This document shows, in pieces, positions 9,821 to 30,485 of a stretch of 30,714 nt of DNA (its first letter is position 1; each line of letters begins with the position of its first letter). The notes under the pieces were generated by a model that had not been told where the DNA came from, did no database searches, and saw only the letters and a program-made list of their open reading frames with translations. This DNA comes from a virus. The stretch covers positions 1 to 30,714 of IMG/VR virus record IMGVR_UViG_3300012269_000016; one strand, 5' to 3'. The position numbers and the translations under genes are program-made.

Positions 9821-11169
9821 TTAACAACTCAGATGATGTGTTTGAAATTATTGAGTACATCGCCGCAACGTCCAGTACAAAGGCTAAACAAGATATTATT
9901 GAAGCGTGCCTAGAAACCGAACTATTCAAAAAAGTAATCAAATTTGCTTGTGAACCACTTCTTAGGTTTGGTCTGTTAGACATGCCTGCCGTAACTTCAG
10001 GTTACAATACCTTGAATGATGAGTCTTGGCGAATCTTAGATTGTCTCGCCTCAGGTGAGGTTCGACGTTCCATTGATACAATTGATCTTGTTACTGACCA
10101 CCTGGGGAGTCTAACAGCAGACTCTCAAGAGTTGTTTCGCCGAATCCTTAAGAAAGATTTACGGGCAGGCTTTGGTACAGCAATCATAAACAAAGCTTCA
10201 AAGAAGGTTAATGGCTCTGCCTTGATCACTGACTTTCCTTACATGCGGTGCTCATTACCCAAGCATGTGAATCTCGAAGAATGGCCCTGGGCCTCAGGCA
10301 TTGACAGTGAAGTGAAACTCGACGGTATGTTTGCCAGCCTGTCTGTAGTGGGCAGCGGAGGACAGATGCACACACGCAAGGGTCAGCTATTTGATCTTGG
10401 CTTGGCGTCTTGGGAGGGTCTGAATAAAGACATTCGATTGTTGCCTCCCGGTTTCCGCTTTTCCGGCGAGCTGATTGTTGTCAGAAACGGGCAAACAATG
10501 AAGCGTCAAACCGGTAACGGTTTCATCAATGCACTGTTAAACGGCAATGACACGTTGCCTGATGATTGCCACGTTGCGTACACAGTGTGGGATATGGTGC
10601 CTCTACAAGCCGCCGCAGATAATTTCTATGACCGCACAAGAGCCCAACGTAAAGCCGCACTGCTGAGCATCTTATCTTTCCAAGATTTCAGTGACATAAG
10701 CTTTGTGGAGACACGGCAAGTCTTCAGCTTGGAAGAAGCACAAGCACATGCGCAAGAAGTTATGGATTCGGGCGGTGAAGGTACTGTATTGAAACATCCC
10801 AATGGCCTATGGAAAAAGACAACTTCGAAGCATGAGATCAAGATTAAAGCTGAACACACTGCAGATCTTCGGATGTTGTCGTTGACGCCGGGTACGGGCA
10901 AGAATGAAGCTACATTCGGCTCAATCACCTGCGCAACAGACGATGGGAATGTCATTGTAGATGTTTCAGGCTACACCGACGAGCTGAGAAAAGACATCTA
11001 TGAGAACTGGGAGAATGTTTACGAAGGTCGCTTGATGGAGCTGACCTTCAATGACTTGCTCAGCAAAAGAAACAGAGAGACGTTCTCATTGTTTCTGCCC
11101 AGGTTCAAAGAGTTCAGATTTGACAAAGATGACACCGACAGCTACGAGTCTATAAAAGCGATGATTTAG
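9817..11169 (+). CDS. ATP-dependent DNA ligase
   Basis: A 450-aa ligase of the T4 gp30 type that seals nicks using ATP. Nucleotidyltransferase motif I is EVKLDGMF with the AMP-accepting Lys at 167. Motif Ia-like HTRKGQ, motif III FSGELIV (E218), motif IV EGTVLKH (321-327) and motif V IKIKAEHTADL (341-351) follow in order. The N-terminal 150 residues (LFRRILKKDLRAGFG) form the DNA-binding helical domain seen in T4 and eukaryotic ligases. ATG 9817 is chosen because of the ATGA overlap and AAAAGG upstream. A longer frame from 9739 is possible but would overlap the zinc microprotein gene. Confidence 0.94.
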   Translation: MINNSDDVFEIIEYIAATSSTKAKQDIIEACLETELFKKVIKFACEPLLRFGLLDMPAVTSGYNTLNDESWRILDCLASGEVRRSIDTIDLVTDHLGSLTADSQELFRRILKKDLRAGFGTAIINKASKKVNGSALITDFPYMRCSLPKHVNLEEWPWASGIDSEVKLDGMFASLSVVGSGGQMHTRKGQLFDLGLASWEGLNKDIRLLPPGFRFSGELIVVRNGQTMKRQTGNGFINALLNGNDTLPDDCHVAYTVWDMVPLQAAADNFYDRTRAQRKAALLSILSFQDFSDISFVETRQVFSLEEAQAHAQEVMDSGGEGTVLKHPNGLWKKTTSKHEIKIKAEHTADLRMLSLTPGTGKNEATFGSITCATDDGNVIVDVSGYTDELRKDIYENWENVYEGRLMELTFNDLLSKRNRETFSLFLPRFKEFRFDKDDTDSYESIKAMI

Positions 11170-21021: not shown

Positions 21022-21289
21022 CGAGTATCGATACACAGTGGAGGGGTGGCTTACTGAAGCCGCCTTTTCTCAGGGCTTGAAAGAAGTCGCTGAAAGAGGA
21101 GACAAGCGGCTGACAATGACAGGCTCTCTAGGCATTGAGAATCACGTGAACCGTTACATAATCCACATAGGATTAGATGGCAAAACTTTGTATTTAAAGT
21201 CTGTGACTTCTCTTAAAAAGGCCAGAGAAATGTTTATCAAGCTTTGCTTAATCCATCGTCTTAATCACAAAAGGTATAATCCGCAATGA
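21002..21289 (+). CDS. Hypothetical protein, TTG start
   Basis: A 95-aa protein. TTG 21002 with GGAG seven bases upstream is the best start; the frame extends further upstream only in overlap with the previous gene. GLKEVAERGDKRLTMTGS resembles a segment in the gene at 19072. The end is a basic helix (LIHRLNHKRYNPQ). It ends in an ATGA overlap. Function unknown. Confidence 0.62.
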   Translation: MSNRKDNEYRYTVEGWLTEAAFSQGLKEVAERGDKRLTMTGSLGIENHVNRYIIHIGLDGKTLYLKSVTSLKKAREMFIKLCLIHRLNHKRYNPQ

Positions 21290-21504
21290 TCTTCGGCTCT
21301 AAGCTGGATAAACTTGTAAGCGGTAAATTGAAATACAACTTCAGGTATCACAGCAACGCGTTAACTCCTGATTTGGTTTTAGTTTACATAAATGGTAAGC
21401 CTGATAAGCATTACTATGCATACGCCTGGATTGACGCAGAGCAGGCGCATCCTGAATCTAAATTGGCAAAACTTCATACAATTTATAAGGAAAGCATCAA
21501 ATGA
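21286..21504 (+). CDS. Hypothetical protein
   Basis: A 72-aa protein of unknown function, between ATGA overlaps. It has a basic N-terminus (SKLDKLVSGKLKYNFRY) and a Tyr-rich middle (KHYYAYAWID). Confidence 0.68.
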   Translation: MIFGSKLDKLVSGKLKYNFRYHSNALTPDLVLVYINGKPDKHYYAYAWIDAEQAHPESKLAKLHTIYKESIK

Positions 21505-21836
21505 TCCTAATTGAAGAGCACCAAATCCTGCCACTGGTAAAAGCTGTCTACAATATGTCAAGCCCTGTGGGGATGGGTTTTCTACACTACACTCCAGAAG
21601 ACATGACAACTGAAGAAGCCGATAACGTAATCAGAACGGACGCAGCAGATTGTGTCGCAAGCATGGATTATGTTAAAGGTCGTCAATGCAAGTTCAGTAT
21701 TTTTAAAGTTGGCTACAAGTTTGCCGTAGCTGACTCCTGGGATGATCACAGCAAGTGGGAATACGCAATTTTACTCAATTCGGTAGGCATACCTTTGCCG
21801 CAACATCTACAAGGAGATCTGACGCATGCTGACTGA
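21501..21836 (+). CDS. Hypothetical protein
   Basis: A 111-aa protein of unknown function that begins in an ATGA overlap and ends 11 nt into the next gene. Alpha/beta composition, with SKWEYAILLNSVGIPLP at the C-terminus. No known motif. Confidence 0.7.
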   Translation: MILIEEHQILPLVKAVYNMSSPVGMGFLHYTPEDMTTEEADNVIRTDAADCVASMDYVKGRQCKFSIFKVGYKFAVADSWDDHSKWEYAILLNSVGIPLPQHLQGDLTHAD

Positions 21837-22224
21837 AGAGAAGCGAATAAAAGCAATAAGGCAAACTCAACTGGTTTACAGTATGTGCATTCGTCAAAAT
21901 GTATTCCCTTCGGCTCTTCAACAAATAGAGCACCTCCATGATGTGCTGGCCGCTGTTGATGAGCAGCCTGTTACGTTCAGATTTCGCAGGGAAGTTATTA
22001 ATGAGCACATTTTGCACATCTGTGATGACTTTCATTCAGAAGATCAAGGCGAAGCTGCTGATCTCGTGTGCAACAGAGAAGAACAAATGTGCATGAATTG
22101 CGGTGTCGTCGAGTTCAATGCGCCTTGTCATAATGTCAAGGGTGTTTGCCTCGAATGCAAACGGCATGTCGGTAAGTGTATTTGTCATGTGCCTTCATTG
22201 TACTACAGGGGAGTGCCTGAATGA
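21826..22224 (+). CDS. Cysteine-rich hypothetical protein
   Basis: A 132-aa protein with a helical N-terminal part (EEKRIKAIRQTQLVYSM) and a C-terminal cysteine cluster: CMNCG, NAPCHN, VCLEC, KCICH, enough ligands for two zinc ions. It may be a zinc adaptor. It ends in an ATGA overlap with the next gene. Confidence 0.72.
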   Translation: MLTEEKRIKAIRQTQLVYSMCIRQNVFPSALQQIEHLHDVLAAVDEQPVTFRFRREVINEHILHICDDFHSEDQGEAADLVCNREEQMCMNCGVVEFNAPCHNVKGVCLECKRHVGKCICHVPSLYYRGVPE

Positions 22225-22436
22225 AAACTTACGTAACATTTGGACAGGCGCACTTCCATCTAATCAACGGTGTAATCTTTGACAAAGACTGCGTGGCAGT
22301 TGTTGAAGGCGGACGTCAACAAGCCTTTGAACTATTTGGGACAACATTTTGCCTCGAATACACTGAGGCGGAATTTGACCATGACCTTATGCACTGTTTT
22401 CCAAGAGGCTTTATCAATGCAAATATGGAAGTATAG
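22221..22436 (+). CDS. Conserved small phage protein
   Basis: A 71-aa protein of the type KTYVTFGQAHFHLINGVIFD, followed by FELFGTTFCLEY and CFPRGFINAN. I remember this pattern as widespread in small phage proteins without known function. It starts in an ATGA overlap and ends 20 nt inside the next gene. Confidence 0.75.
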   Translation: MKTYVTFGQAHFHLINGVIFDKDCVAVVEGGRQQAFELFGTTFCLEYTEAEFDHDLMHCFPRGFINANMEV

Positions 22437-22680
22437 CCTATCATTCGAAAGACAGGAATTTTTGATGCCTGTGGGCGCCAGGATCATAAGTGCTAAAGTC
22501 CAAGGAACTGGAATCTGTCTGTGGGCAGTTGTTAATCCTGAATGCTTGCCTGCTTATTACGTGACAAAAACTATTATGTCTGTAATGACAGGTCAAGAAT
22601 GCGAGATACCTGATGAATGGGTCTTTATTGAGACAGTAATGCTGAATAGTATTGTAATTCACATATTTGAGGAAAAGTAA
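22417..22680 (+). CDS. DUF7352-like small phage protein
   Basis: An 87-aa protein. ATG 22417 (AGAGG eight bases upstream) gives the family-typical start MQIWKYSL, followed by EFLMPVGARIISAKVQ and GICLWAVVNPE. This pattern (strand, MPxGAKILSVxVQ, LWAxVxPE) is that of a common small phage protein without known role. An upstream frame to 22279 overlaps the previous gene and is rejected. Confidence 0.7.
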   Translation: MQIWKYSLSFERQEFLMPVGARIISAKVQGTGICLWAVVNPECLPAYYVTKTIMSVMTGQECEIPDEWVFIETVMLNSIVIHIFEEK

Positions 22681-24585
22681 ATGTCTAGATATTCAAGTCT
22701 GTTCACAACAGTTTCTTTGCGTGAAGGCCGTGAGAGCCTGGAGCACAATGTGAAACACAGCATCCAGTATGATCACTTGAGTGAATTTGAACGTATCCAC
22801 TTCAACAGCAGAGAGTTCTGTGCCCTGGTGAACAAAGCCGTGGAGAACGGCTACAGCATTGAGTATGTAATTGAAGAATACAGAGAAGCCGTGGCTGATT
22901 TGCTGAAGATGACTTTCGGCGACATCACAAGAAACAAGCTGACCAGCGCATCGGTCACTCTCAACGGACGTGTGTATCACCTCTCCAACGCTGCTGGGCT
23001 GCAGGATGCCCTGAGTCAGGCCCAGACATTTTTGGCGGAGGTTGGGCCTCTGGTGGCCTCTCGAAAGAGCCGCTCGGTGCCGAAAAACTCGGACAAAGCC
23101 ACTGAAGAGGTGCGCGAGTTTGTTATGAAACCGGCCCTCAACGAGATGTTGATTGCCGCAATGCTTCACAGGCGCTCTCCCAGAATTGTTCATTGGCTAA
23201 ACGAGAATGTACATGAGAAAGTGCATGTATACGGTCCACGCACAACATCCAAAGGGGATTTTATCCCTTACATTCATGAATACAATCTGATGGAACAGCA
23301 CTGCAAAAAACTGAGAAAAGAAAGCACGCATCTGGTGGCAACGGATCTTGTTAAGTACTTCAGCAATATCAAAGTTGAGGAGCTTGTCAAGATATTCTCA
23401 AAAATATTCGGGTCGTCCAAAGAAGCTATCTTCTTGGGAAATTTGCTGAAGTTCACATACATTGATAAAGATGGGGATCCAGCAGACGCTGAAAATGGTC
23501 TCACCATTGAGAGTAATTACCAGCATTACCTCGCCAACATTCTGATGGGGCAAATGCTGACTGAGTTTATCAACACTTCCAAAGAGAAGATGGGCAGGCA
23601 TCCCGATTATGAGATTGTGTCATATATTGATGACATTTATATTTTCTGTAAAGGCAAAGAGACACAGGCTCATGATCTGCTAGATGACTTCAAGATGTTT
23701 ATGAAGGCGACTTACGGGTTTGAGCTGAGTGATGCCAAGACCAGCGTTAAAAGCACGATGCAAGATTTGGCTCTGAAAGGTCTGGTGAGACTGCCCACTA
23801 TAAATTATTTTGACATACTCCCGGAGGTGAATAAAGACTTTACAGAAGAGCTTTCTGAAGAGCTGTTGCATTCTTATCAGCAAATCATTTCCAGGCTGGG
23901 CATGAGCAGCTTCAAAGTCGCAATAGCCTCAATGACGGATGCTCAAGTCAACTTGGTGTACAGTCTCGTACTGTATAGCTATCAGAGCGGACTTGAGTGC
24001 TTTAAAGCAAATGGCAGAGAGATTATACTGACACGCGTCCAGTGCATTCTTAAAAAACCTGTGATGATTGCTATTGCCAAGATGGCGATGCGTTCTGGAA
24101 AAAGCATAACTGAAATGATGGATGTTGATCATGTAAAAGGTCACAACAATTTCAGTCCTACACACGTTAGGACTTCTGCGTATGATTATAATTTGTCAAA
24201 AACGTACGAGGAGGCAATTCGGGACAATGCTTATCTGATCAAGACAGATATGGACGCCAATGACATTGAATTTTATATCCTGCGCTACAAGCAGTTCGAG
24301 TTCAGCTTTGACTGGTTTCGTCCAGGGCTACAGCGACCGATTCTGAGCACTCTGCAATACCTTTACTTAGTTCGCACCAAAAACTCGGGAGAGGCGCAAG
24401 TGGTAGTGGATAGCGCGCTGCGATTGCTGTCAGACAATCCCAATAAGTCGCGTTTTATTGCCGGTATTATTAAGAGGCAGTATCGCAGGGGACAATTACC
24501 TATGTTCAATTTTGAAGTGAAGCTGCCTCCTGTACTTCCGGGGGAAAGGTATGAACTGTTTAACTACAGCATGAGTCGCTTATGA
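22681..24585 (+). CDS. Reverse transcriptase-like protein (Abi/UG-type candidate)
   Basis: A 634-aa protein with the catalytic motifs of reverse transcriptases in order: motif A VATDLVKYFSNI (D222), motif B GLTIESNYQHYLANILM (273-289), motif C VSYIDDIYIF with YIDD at 315-318, and motif D FELSDAKT (347-354). The catalytic acids D222, D317 and D318 are present. The usual PQG and S of motif B are replaced (TIE, QH). About 215 N-terminal and 280 C-terminal residues flank the RT core. The C-terminal part is largely helical, as in AbiA/AbiK-type abortive infection RTs. No maturase or HNH, no retron RNA and no DGR repeats were seen. Codons of the first third are more GC-rich than its neighbours. Class not certain. 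Confidence 0.8.
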   Translation: MSRYSSLFTTVSLREGRESLEHNVKHSIQYDHLSEFERIHFNSREFCALVNKAVENGYSIEYVIEEYREAVADLLKMTFGDITRNKLTSASVTLNGRVYHLSNAAGLQDALSQAQTFLAEVGPLVASRKSRSVPKNSDKATEEVREFVMKPALNEMLIAAMLHRRSPRIVHWLNENVHEKVHVYGPRTTSKGDFIPYIHEYNLMEQHCKKLRKESTHLVATDLVKYFSNIKVEELVKIFSKIFGSSKEAIFLGNLLKFTYIDKDGDPADAENGLTIESNYQHYLANILMGQMLTEFINTSKEKMGRHPDYEIVSYIDDIYIFCKGKETQAHDLLDDFKMFMKATYGFELSDAKTSVKSTMQDLALKGLVRLPTINYFDILPEVNKDFTEELSEELLHSYQQIISRLGMSSFKVAIASMTDAQVNLVYSLVLYSYQSGLECFKANGREIILTRVQCILKKPVMIAIAKMAMRSGKSITEMMDVDHVKGHNNFSPTHVRTSAYDYNLSKTYEEAIRDNAYLIKTDMDANDIEFYILRYKQFEFSFDWFRPGLQRPILSTLQYLYLVRTKNSGEAQVVVDSALRLLSDNPNKSRFIAGIIKRQYRRGQLPMFNFEVKLPPVLPGERYELFNYSMSRL

Positions 24586-24769
24586 TAAAATTACTTGAAA
24601 GAATGCGGTAATTACGTTTATAGGCGGAGCCTCACTGTGTGTGCTGGGTGCTTTTGTCCTTGGCGCTTTGATTGCGACTTTCCCAAAAACAATTTTGGCA
24701 ATTATGATATTGTCATTAGGCATCTTTGCTGCACTTTTCATAAAACTGGCTTATGAGGAATACAAATGA
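24582..24769 (+). pseudogene. Two-helix membrane protein gene, apparently frameshifted
   Basis: ATG 24582 overlaps the RT stop (ATGA) but meets TAA at 24609 after nine codons. In the -1 frame an open stretch from about 24602 to TGA 24767-24769 encodes VITFIGGASLCVLGAF, then LGALIATF and KTILAIMILSLGIFAALFI: two hydrophobic helices ending KLAYEEYK, and it overlaps the next ATG. A GTG at 24641 could start a 42-aa version. So this is either a broken gene, a frameshifted gene or a short GTG-started gene. Confidence 0.5.
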
Positions 24770-25050
24770 AAAAGTTAAAAAACGCGATTTCTGAGTACGA
24801 AAGGCTTTTAAGCTTAAAGGCGAGGTATACAAAGGCAATAAAGTCTGTGCTTGATCGATCCGGGCCGGTAAGTGGTCGGGTCCAATTCCATGATAAATCG
24901 GAGGGCGCGTTCTATGTTGAAATGGGCGCAATCTTCAATGAAGACTCTGACAACTTGCACGACGCGTTGGTCTGTGCTGTTACGAGGCTTGATGAGAAGA
25001 TAGAGAAGATTGAGCCTTTGCTGAAACTTGCTGACGAGGCGTTAAAATAA
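24766..25050 (+). CDS. Hypothetical protein
   Basis: A 94-aa helical protein with charged helices at both ends (ISEYERLLSLKARYTKAIK; LDEKIEKIEPLLKLADEALK), and a short beta region between (GRVQFHDKSEGAFYVEMG). This could be a coiled-coil dimer. Starts in an ATGA overlap, ends in a TAATG overlap. Function unknown. Confidence 0.7.
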   Translation: MKKLKNAISEYERLLSLKARYTKAIKSVLDRSGPVSGRVQFHDKSEGAFYVEMGAIFNEDSDNLHDALVCAVTRLDEKIEKIEPLLKLADEALK

Positions 25051-25388
25051 TGGGGCATTTAATTGACAGTGATGAGGCTTACGAACACAAGTATGATGAG
25101 GCCAGGAGTGATGAAGCTGAGTTAGCTTGTCCAGAGGTTTGGCTTGGCAGTGGCGACAAGCTGGTAGCTGACATCTATGCCAATGACGGGAGTTGGGCGG
25201 GGGTAGGTATATTCAATCCACCAAATGGTAAGACGGGAGGCATCGGGGAAAAAGACGATCAAATTAACGGGATGTCTTTAGGTAAAAATAAAGCGCTTGT
25301 TTTGATTAAAAGCACCCGGCCTGAGTCGCTGCAAGTAGTTGTCGAAGAGCTGCAGGAAGCAATAGCCAAGATGGGGGACAGCCAATGA
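25050..25388 (+). CDS. Hypothetical acidic protein
   Basis: A 112-aa acidic protein of unknown function, Gly-rich in the centre (GIFNPPNGKTGGIGEKDDQI) and helical at the end (LQVVVEELQEAIAKMG). It begins in a TAATG overlap and ends in an ATGA overlap. Confidence 0.7.
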   Translation: MGHLIDSDEAYEHKYDEARSDEAELACPEVWLGSGDKLVADIYANDGSWAGVGIFNPPNGKTGGIGEKDDQINGMSLGKNKALVLIKSTRPESLQVVVEELQEAIAKMGDSQ

Positions 25389-28247: not shown

Positions 28248-28608
28248 GCTTCATAAAGGACAGACACAGATCTTCAGGGCTCTCTTTGTGGAGATGACTA
28301 AGAAATTTGTGACTGCATGTTGCTCTCGGGGTTTCGGCAAGAGCTATAAGGCTGCTGTTGCCGCAACGACTGCCGTGTTTGAATTGATGGAGATGGATGA
28401 AGAAATTCCCAATAAGACCGTCTACATCATCGCACCTACACTTGATCAAGCTAAAGAGATCTATTTCCCGTTACTTGTGCATGAGTTTCACCTTGATGAT
28501 TACTGCATAAAGCCGCCAAGCGCTGACACAGGTAAGTTTGACTTCGGTAAAGGTGTGACATTACGATTGGTGTCCTTTGAAGCCATAGAAAGACTGCGTG
28601 GCAAGGGT
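28234..28608 (+). CDS. Large terminase subunit, exon 1
   Basis: The first 125 residues of the packaging ATPase-nuclease. Walker A is CCSRGFGKSYKAA (SRGFGKS at 31-37). TVYIIAPTLDQAKEIY is the typical next strand-helix, and RLVSFEAIERLRGKG ends just before Walker B. Read through without splicing, the frame stops at 28636-28638 in intron sequence. The exon end CAAGGGU pairs with a guide sequence GCCCUUG at 28619-28625, fixing the splice site after U28608. Confidence 0.93.
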
Positions 28609-29552
28609 AAAAATACCTGCCCTTGTAAAATTCCGTGAATTCGGTGGAACTCCCTAAGGGACAATACCGAGCCAAGCTTATCCAGGAATGGATTTGAAGG
28701 TGTAACGACTAGGACATACGATCCAGAACGGATTATGAAGTCCATAGGGCTAAGCGGCCCGAAGCGCGGAAGCATCACTTGTGATGTATGATATAGTCTG
28801 ATCTGCACGGCAACGTGTAGTAGTGCTCGCCAAGCACATGTGAGAAATTTTATGGAATGGAAAGAATACTCAAACTATTTTGTGAGCAATACTGGTAAGA
28901 TTTTTAGCAATCATATCAATGCTGAACTTCAAATAAACACCGGTAGATATAAGATGGCTGATTTGCGTTTAAAAACAGGGCCACTTAAGATAGGTGTCCA
29001 CAGACTTGTAGCTACTCTGTTTTTAGAAAATCCTCATGATCACCCTTGCGTAAACCATAAAGACGGTGACAAGCATAATAATCATGTTGATAATCTAGAG
29101 TGGTGTACTTATTCTGAAAACACAATTCATTCTTATGCCACAGGTTTGCAGACCATAGGTTCAGAAAAAACATTAGCATTGCTTAACGAAGAGGATGTAG
29201 TAGTAATACATCAGCGAATGCTAAATGGTGAGAAGGATCACATTCTCGCACGAGACTACAATGTCACTTCGGGTGTTATTTCGTCGATAAGACTTAATAA
29301 GACTTGGAAACATGTGACAAGAGAGGCTCTGCCACGCTCTGGAGCTAACCCTAAAAAGAAGCTTTCAGGAGAGGACATTCCGATAATCCGTGGAATGATT
29401 GCAGAAGATACGAGTGATGCTGCTATTGCAAGAGTATTCGGTGTAGCACGCGCTACAATAAATCAAATACGTCAGGGCAAGACTTGGCGTAATTATTAAT
29501 TAACTTGGCGAGACACAGGCAGAGTATTAGCGGACTCTGTTGAACATTAATG
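28609..29552 (+). ncRNA. Group I intron (td-like, IA2) in the large terminase gene
   Basis: A self-splicing intron of 944 nt. P1: CAAGGGU (28602-28608) with GCCCUUG (28619-28625), U-G at the splice site. P7: GACUA (28707-28711) with UAGUC (28794-28798). P9: CUGCACG/CGUGUAG (28803-28820) with a GCAA loop. The segments GTGAATTCGGTG and ACAATACCGAGCC near the 5' end, and TGTAACGACTA, are almost the same as in the RNA polymerase intron. The last base is G29552 in GAACATTAATG, the same ending as T4 td. P10 is less clear than in the first intron (AUAC 28613-28616 with GUAU 29555-29558). Confidence 0.92.
28852..29499 (+). CDS. Intron-encoded HNH homing endonuclease with two HTH units
   Basis: A 215-aa nuclease in the terminase intron. 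NUMOD4-like start (MEWKEYSNYFVSNTGKIFSN), HNH_3 core (VNHKDGDKHNNHVDNLEW, about 67-84, His69), then two tandem C-terminal units, 111-155 and 171-215. Each ends in a similar motif (IRLNKTWKHV, IRQGKTWRNY). The related protein at 474-959 has only one unit. ATG 28852 matches the start of that relative; an in-frame GTG at 28840 would add 4 residues. It probably directs spread of the intron into unoccupied terminase genes. Confidence 0.92.
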   Translation: MEWKEYSNYFVSNTGKIFSNHINAELQINTGRYKMADLRLKTGPLKIGVHRLVATLFLENPHDHPCVNHKDGDKHNNHVDNLEWCTYSENTIHSYATGLQTIGSEKTLALLNEEDVVVIHQRMLNGEKDHILARDYNVTSGVISSIRLNKTWKHVTREALPRSGANPKKKLSGEDIPIIRGMIAEDTSDAAIARVFGVARATINQIRQGKTWRNY

Positions 29553-30485
29553 GCGTATTTCGTTGTGTGTGATGAGGTTAGCTCATGGAGCAAGAAGCCA
29601 GGCTTTAAGGCTGCATGGGAAGGCATTATACAACCTATGATAGTGACACGTTGGCCTGTCCTCGGGAGAGCCCTGATCATAAGCACTCCGAAAGGTTACA
29701 ACTACTTTCATGATCTGTGTATGCTGTCCAGAGAGGATCCCGATTGGGGTTTCTTTCATTTCACCTATCGTGACTCTCCCTTCTTATCTATAAAAGAAAT
29801 TGAGAAAATCAAGAGCAGAATTGACCCTATTGAATTTGCCACAGAGTATGAGGCTGATTTCAAAGACTCAGGCAACTCTGTGTTCTACATGTTTGATCGT
29901 AACATACAAGTCCGCAAGATGGACTGGTTCGAGGAGAAAGAAGATGTCTACATCGCAATCGATTTCAACGTTAGCAGGCAGTGCACATCCATATGGCGTA
30001 AGATGGGAAACGAATTGTGGGCCGTTGACGAAATGCAAGGGCATCCCGATACAGAGACTCTCGCTATTGCCTTGGAAGAAAGATTTGTCAGCAAAGGACA
30101 TGAAGTCTATGCCTTTCCCGACCCTTCCGGAAATTCCAGATCAACGAAAGCACCTGTCGGCACAACTGATTTCACCATCCTCAAGAAGCATGGGATACGA
30201 GTACTGGCTCACAAAGCCGCTCCCGGAATCGTTGACTCAGTTGCAGCCGTAAATGCTAAATTGATGACAGCGAAAGGTGTGACAACTCTTTGGTTTCATC
30301 CCCGATGCAAAGGTCTCATTAAGTCAATGGAGCGGACTGTTTGGATTGACAACAACAGTGACACGGCAAGTATAGATAAATCAGGCAATGATGAGCATTA
30401 CTCAGATGGTGTTCGATATATATGCGAATACTTATGGCCCATTAAGAGAAGTGGTGGCAGATCGTCGCGAGGATTCGGATTCTGA
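29553..30485 (+). CDS. Large terminase subunit, exon 2
   Basis: The last 310 residues; the joined protein has 435. Walker B opens the exon, AYFVVCDEVSS (D132, E133 in the joined protein). ALIISTPKGYN is the coupling motif. The RNase H-like nuclease has AIDFNVS (D262), FPDPSGN (D315) and EHYSDGVRY (D410). It pumps DNA into proheads and cuts it. The length and motifs fit the Terminase_3/6-type rather than the longer T7 gp19. The ATG at 29550 is made of the last intron bases and is probably not used as a start. The stop overlaps the next gene by TGATG. Confidence 0.94.
   Translation, partial: AYFVVCDEVSSWSKKPGFKAAWEGIIQPMIVTRWPVLGRALIISTPKGYNYFHDLCMLSREDPDWGFFHFTYRDSPFLSIKEIEKIKSRIDPIEFATEYEADFKDSGNSVFYMFDRNIQVRKMDWFEEKEDVYIAIDFNVSRQCTSIWRKMGNELWAVDEMQGHPDTETLAIALEERFVSKGHEVYAFPDPSGNSRSTKAPVGTTDFTILKKHGIRVLAHKAAPGIVDSVAAVNAKLMTAKGVTTLWFHPRCKGLIKSMERTVWIDNNSDTASIDKSGNDEHYSDGVRYICEYLWPIKRSGGRSSRGFGF

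Follow-up and report, generated by a model that had tools for sequence, protein, structure and literature searches.

A reverse transcriptase-fold polymerase family carried by phages, with an altered motif B

Introduction

The reverse transcriptases (RTs) known from phages belong mostly to DGRs, or are defence RTs of temperate prophages. Two features of the RT active site bear on what these enzymes make. The Gln and Gly of the LPQG sequence in motif B usually touch the template and the base that is coming in, and at the steric-gate position an aromatic residue keeps out ribonucleotides. Among the described systems, AbiK and AbiA produce untemplated, tyrosine-primed ssDNA (PMC9508834, PMC11077055). 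Drt3b offers a further model of such a mechanism (PMC13174585).

Here we analyse an RT gene in the virus record IMGVR_UViG_3300012269_000016. The window is the whole stretch of 30,714 bases of that record. The encoded protein resembles AbiA (Lactococcus, PDB 8oz7) in having an RT fold followed by a region predicted to be helical, but differs from it in motif B and in the residue before YxDD. With the class-1 UG RTs (AbiK, Abi-P2, Drt4, Drt6 and Drt3b) it has in common a fingers motif, a palm and a C-terminus that is predicted to be helical. Against the UG9 and UG21 RTs it reaches 31-46 bits, when compared to 772 for a true UG9 on its own model. As for group II intron RTs, the likeness is one of generic palm similarity, whereas the maturase domain and the intron RNA are missing and motif B is altered.

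Results

The RT gene occupies positions 22681-24585 (+ strand, as are all RT coordinates below), begins with ATG and encodes 634 aminoacids with no internal stop. Pfam RVT_1 matches residues 205-357 (E=4.9e-11; 43.2 bits against a cut-off of 29.6), and both relatives, each scored alone, also exceed the cut-off (40-44 bits). An intact RT with D222, YIDD at 315-318 and a motif D had been proposed in a preliminary description of this DNA, and the unbroken frame, the profile match and the presence of K353 bear this out. With RVT_1 above cut-off, a motif A Asp, YxDD and a predicted palm fold all present, a genuine RT-fold polymerase is strongly supported.

The closest relative, 90% identical over the whole length, is encoded on the IMG/VR sister contig L001 (53.9 kb). 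Between the two, dN/dS is 0.21 for the whole gene and lowest in the RT domain (0.14), where purifying selection is strongest, which indicates that the gene is maintained for function. Residues 451-500 (24031-24180) have a dS of 0.83 and a dN of 0.34 in the same comparison, with the RT domains about 95% identical. The high dS of this patch, within the helical region, suggests a segment exchange between the sister phages rather than selection alone.

The other relative is g096 of the Yersinia jumbo phage phiR1-37 (AJ972879.2, 690 aminoacids, product unnamed), 27.6% identical over residues 20-379 (tblastn 7e-20). It has every family motif in common with the window RT, but it lies in a jumbo phage genome, has a longer C-terminus and is surrounded by other genes. 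GenBank phages held no relative besides phiR1-37. Protein-motif scans of IMG/VR viral contigs returned only L001 and phiR1-37, and those of GTDB genomes returned none; because the scans require short exact protein motifs, diverged members may be missed. No plasmid matched the window protein by tblastn at E<=0.01, and with the phiR1-37 protein as query (E<=10) the plasmid matches listed were mainly to group II RTs. On a Falsirhodobacter plasmid (L026, 1953-4753), a UG9 RT gene overlaps an annotated DNA polymerase gene. The phiR1-37 query also gave a weak match in phages (H15, 1e-3), and another (H16) that is apparently an RT from a group II intron and was set aside. The family is phage-borne and has at least three members: the window phage, its sister contig and phiR1-37. 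A separate phage RT family of more than 1000 aminoacids may exist (BFVD A0A218KIR8, 1058 aminoacids; phrog_1423, a profile of 1040 positions); its profile similarity to the window RT is weak (3.5e-5).

The catalytic residues D222, YIDD and K353 are all in place, and the enzyme is apparently active. Motif A (D222-LVKY-F227-SNI, 23344-23370) contains the catalytic Asp, invariant in 18 sequences, and F227 takes the steric-gate position at D+5. Since this residue is aromatic, the product is probably DNA rather than RNA. The catalytic YIDD (residues 315-318, 23623-23634) sits on a beta-hairpin (E310-315/E318-323), and K353 belongs to motif D, AKTS in the alignment (23734-23745).

Several further motifs are invariant between the window RT and g096, across only 27% identity. 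At the N-terminal we find SIQYDH (residues 27-32, 22759-22776), in which Tyr30 is one candidate priming tyrosine. The fingers motif VPKNSDKAT...R145 (23077-23115), invariant in its VPKNSDKAT part, aligns with NKDG..WRP of Abi-P2 and YIPK..RP of group II RTs. The family-specific YIHEY (residues 197-201, 23269-23283) stands before motif A. Finally, the junction LVRLP...YFDI (residues 368-379, 23782-23817) follows the palm and contains Tyr376, a second candidate for priming.

Motif B reads GLTIESNYQHYLANI in the window RT, so the absence of PQG and Ser noticed earlier is real. When compared with 18 reference RTs, its core GLTIESNYQH (23497-23526) has Ile for Gln and Glu for Gly of LPQG, and no Ser. 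Where other RTs carry LPQG..SP, or some version of it, the three family members have GLTIES..QH, invariant even between the window RT and g096. The residue before YxDD is Ser in the window RT and Phe in phiR1-37, against Arg in 18 of the 18 reference RTs. The loss of Ser is not unique, being seen also in Abi-P2. On these alignments, the unusual features are the two replacements inside LPQG and the loss of Arg before YxDD.

In terms of family profiles, the PADLOC (2023) groups score at best 34-46 bits, mostly over the RT core, with UG21, UG33, AbiA, UG9 and Abi-P2 leading. For scale, each of nine UG/Abi references reaches 380-770 bits when run against its own model, and the models of sister groups often give 60-330. 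Membership of a named UG/DRT group is not supported by scores so far under the 380-770 bits of members. For AbiA the protein reaches 30.4 bits against a cut-off of 250, and membership is likewise not supported; the AbiA profiles extend beyond the palm, to residues 481-490. A HEPN motif, R-x(4-6)-H, does not occur after residue 212, in a protein whose C-terminal fold is modelled at low confidence. In profile-profile comparison the scores are 82 for group II, 76 for UG9, 68 for the class-1 set, 54 for Abi-P2, 46 for UG17 and 45 for DGR, when controls within class 1 give 115-120. The group II RT profile gives 45.9 bits against a cut-off of 300, a match that is generic, as AbiK itself scores 41 on that profile. 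Retron-type profiles give 13-21 bits, when the cut-off for the St85 family is 235, and no match to a retron RT family was obtained.

In the RT-core tree, the window RT, the L001 homologue and g096 form their own clade (96/91), outside the clade of AbiK, Abi-P2, Drt6 and Drt3b (97/97). The nearest single reference is UG9, weakly (83/72). By the AU test, grouping with Abi-P2 is rejected (p=0.004), and grouping with the class-1 set (p=0.325) or with group II (p=0.229) is not. The three proteins thus appear as a deep separate lineage joining no tested family, a conclusion limited by a tree that holds no AbiA sequence. This matches the separate deep branch that had been anticipated as one outcome; of the other, placement with UG/Abi, the AU test rejects the grouping with Abi-P2 and not that with the class-1 set. 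The Abi/UG class proposed at the outset stands for the build, which is Abi-like with AbiA as top structural match, and lacks support as membership of AbiA, AbiK, Abi-P2 or a named UG group. So far as the searched literature and libraries show, this is a new, undescribed RT family in phages, and we found no description of a phiR1-37 RT in the literature.

When given just the three family members, AlphaFold reached a pLDDT of 31, and that model was discarded. The model used rests on an alignment of 18 sequences; viral Abi-P2 and group II proteins were among them, and AbiA was not. Residues ~150-360 are predicted to adopt the palm and fingers of an RT (pLDDT mostly 80-94), with YIDD on the expected hairpin, in agreement with the palm fold expected around this site. 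Because RT relatives were in the input, the palm is supported, though not independently of homology, and the Abi-P2 and group II sequences make the palm model lean towards their folds. AbiA was ranked first both by Foldseek (4.9e-9) and by VIA (Z 18.8, rmsd 3.7, 276 aligned), tied with group II RT structures (Z 18.0-18.2). Abi-P2, DRT6 and AbiK come next (Z 14.4-15.6), and DRT9 and DRT2 are also among the matches. In the viral structure library, the best match is G4KK35, a 690-aminoacid entry that from its length we take to be g096.

The C-terminal region (residues 380-634, 23818-24582) is predicted to be almost all helical, with pLDDT below 50. At about 260 residues, it appears in the model to replace the thumb/maturase region. 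The large terminal regions had both been considered unknown. Part of the N-terminal one is now assigned to the fingers (VPKNSDKAT...R145). The C-terminal one, for which an alpha-repeat had been suggested, is predicted to be helical at low confidence.

The window phage carries a T7-type gene set, with a single-subunit RNA polymerase, a family-A DNA polymerase, a primase-helicase, a ligase and a terminase, as expected from the preliminary description of an RT inside a phage with replicative and packaging genes. The nearest relatives of its primase-helicase are in the roseophages CRP-7 and DSS3_PM1/VP1 (45-48%). Directly before the RT start codon, with no gap, lies a DUF7352 gene (22417-22680, + strand, Pfam 8.3e-15). 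It is missing at the corresponding place in L001, where the alignment breaks and another ORF overlaps the RT start. The RT stop is overlapped by the start of a small membrane-protein-like ORF (24582-24611, + strand), recognised by comparison with L001. There it encodes 66 aminoacids (9902-10102), and in the window it is frameshifted by a short deletion. A downstream membrane-protein partner was considered and set aside, the frame being broken in the window. The genes beside the window RT include no known effector, toxin or defence gene.

In both the window and L001, the RT gene touches or overlaps the genes next to it, leaving no intergenic space for a cis ncRNA. The phiR1-37 gene g096 is flanked by a predicted promoter and a predicted terminator, its leader being roughly 25 nt long. 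Several of its neighbours are marked as structural proteins, and g096 itself is not. Of the ten new ncRNAs found by phiR1-37 RNA-seq, none is at the g096 locus (54.2-56.2 kb), and g096 is not among the genes listed without reads (PMC4848604). With no flanking room and none of those ncRNAs at the locus, no cis ncRNA is evident in either phage; one overlapping a coding region or encoded elsewhere could still serve the enzyme.

Retron RNA, DGR repeats and a maturase domain, which the first reading of the sequence did not find, were not recovered by Rfam, repeat searches or Pfam. Rfam identifies only group I introns in the window and no retron RNA, a search that an undescribed RNA could escape. 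Within 21200-25100 there are no suitable inverted repeats of the retron msr/msd type. As for a DGR template/variable pair, the window fragment holds only a repeat of the intron cores and one 36-nt repeat at 75%. Pfam finds RVT_1 only, with no maturase domain, and Rfam finds no group II RNA. On these features (repeats, maturase, RNA), a DGR RT and a group II intron protein are ruled out.

The first group I intron (158-443, Rfam 75.6 bits) lies in the RNA polymerase region and is followed by a NUMOD4/HNH endonuclease ORF (474-959). It looks optional, since the L001 RNA polymerase frame is long (749 aminoacids) with no stop. The second (28564-28820, 58 bits) and an HNH endonuclease (28840-29499) directly precede the terminase large subunit frame (29550-30485). 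The cores of the two introns are 74% identical over 57 nt.

Discussion

The reading we favour, tentatively and with somewhat less than even confidence, is that of an AbiA-like, possibly self-primed DNA polymerase that works independently of RNA and serves phage-host or phage-phage conflict. Fingers and palm would be followed by a helical C-terminal region, as in AbiA, AbiK and Abi-P2. DNA would be made with no cis-encoded RNA template, in an Abi-like mode, which we propose because of the architecture, the lack of space for an RNA and the altered motif B. Synthesis would probably begin on one of the protein's own tyrosines, with Tyr30, Tyr376 and Tyr629 as candidates; an invariant Tyr is weak evidence here, because priming tyrosines differ in place among Abi proteins. 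The active site is changed, from LPQG to LTIE, just where other RTs touch the incoming base and template. The gene itself would be an accessory conflict gene, directed at a rival phage or at some system of the host. We infer the DNA product from the aromatic steric-gate residue, and likewise template independence, protein priming and conflict role are our inference; against this reading counts that no sequence-family or tree test joins the window RT to an Abi group. A bolder version, an RT-fold lineage of lytic phages making template-free DNA with an Ile-Glu motif B on a covalent protein primer, as weapon or counter-weapon, seems to us rather doubtful.

The strongest alternative, in our view unlikely, is a defence RT of the class-2 DRT kind, whose template would be a small RNA from another place in the phage genome or from within a neighbour gene. 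UG9 as the nearest, weakly placed tree reference, UG21 and UG9 among the best profiles, and DRT9 and DRT2 among the structural matches all agree with it. Yet there is no intergenic space beside the RT gene in two unrelated phages, Rfam gives group I introns only, and LPQG, the part of a templated RT that binds base and template, is altered.

Less probable again is a role in counter-defence, in which the RT would block or decoy a host retron or DRT, or its DNA would neutralise a host sensor. It fits the distribution of the family, which occurs in phages whose gene sets are lytic and is absent from the bacterial genomes and plasmids searched. The C-terminal patch that diverges highly between the sister phages, as is often seen in recombining conflict genes, points the same way, although its high dS points to segment exchange and not selection alone. 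A pure decoy, however, would not need intact catalytic residues, and no partner was identified.

A housekeeping enzyme of replication, repair or end processing, unconnected with conflict, we regard as more improbable still. That the gene is kept, under purifying selection, both in a podophage of the T7 kind and in a jumbo phage would suit such a role. But the RT is absent from related GenBank phages, even though the primase-helicase relatives CRP-7 and DSS3_PM1/VP1 are there, and its gene sits among small variable ORFs. Lastly, the RT might be what is left of a group II intron protein, or might assist the two group I introns of the window. Those introns and the group II profile match speak for this reading, which is very improbable given a score far below the cut-off and close to that of AbiK, the absence of both maturase domain and group II RNA, and a sister phage that retains the RT with its RNA polymerase frame unbroken.

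Returning to the AbiA-like polymerase, the presence of a distinct RT family in one phage with T7-type genes and in the lytic jumbo phage phiR1-37 suggests a chemistry kept for the phages' own use. With its invariant departures in motif B and before YxDD, the family also provides a naturally varied RT active site. Furthermore, phiR1-37 has been isolated and sequenced and has transcriptome data, which makes the function of g096 directly testable.
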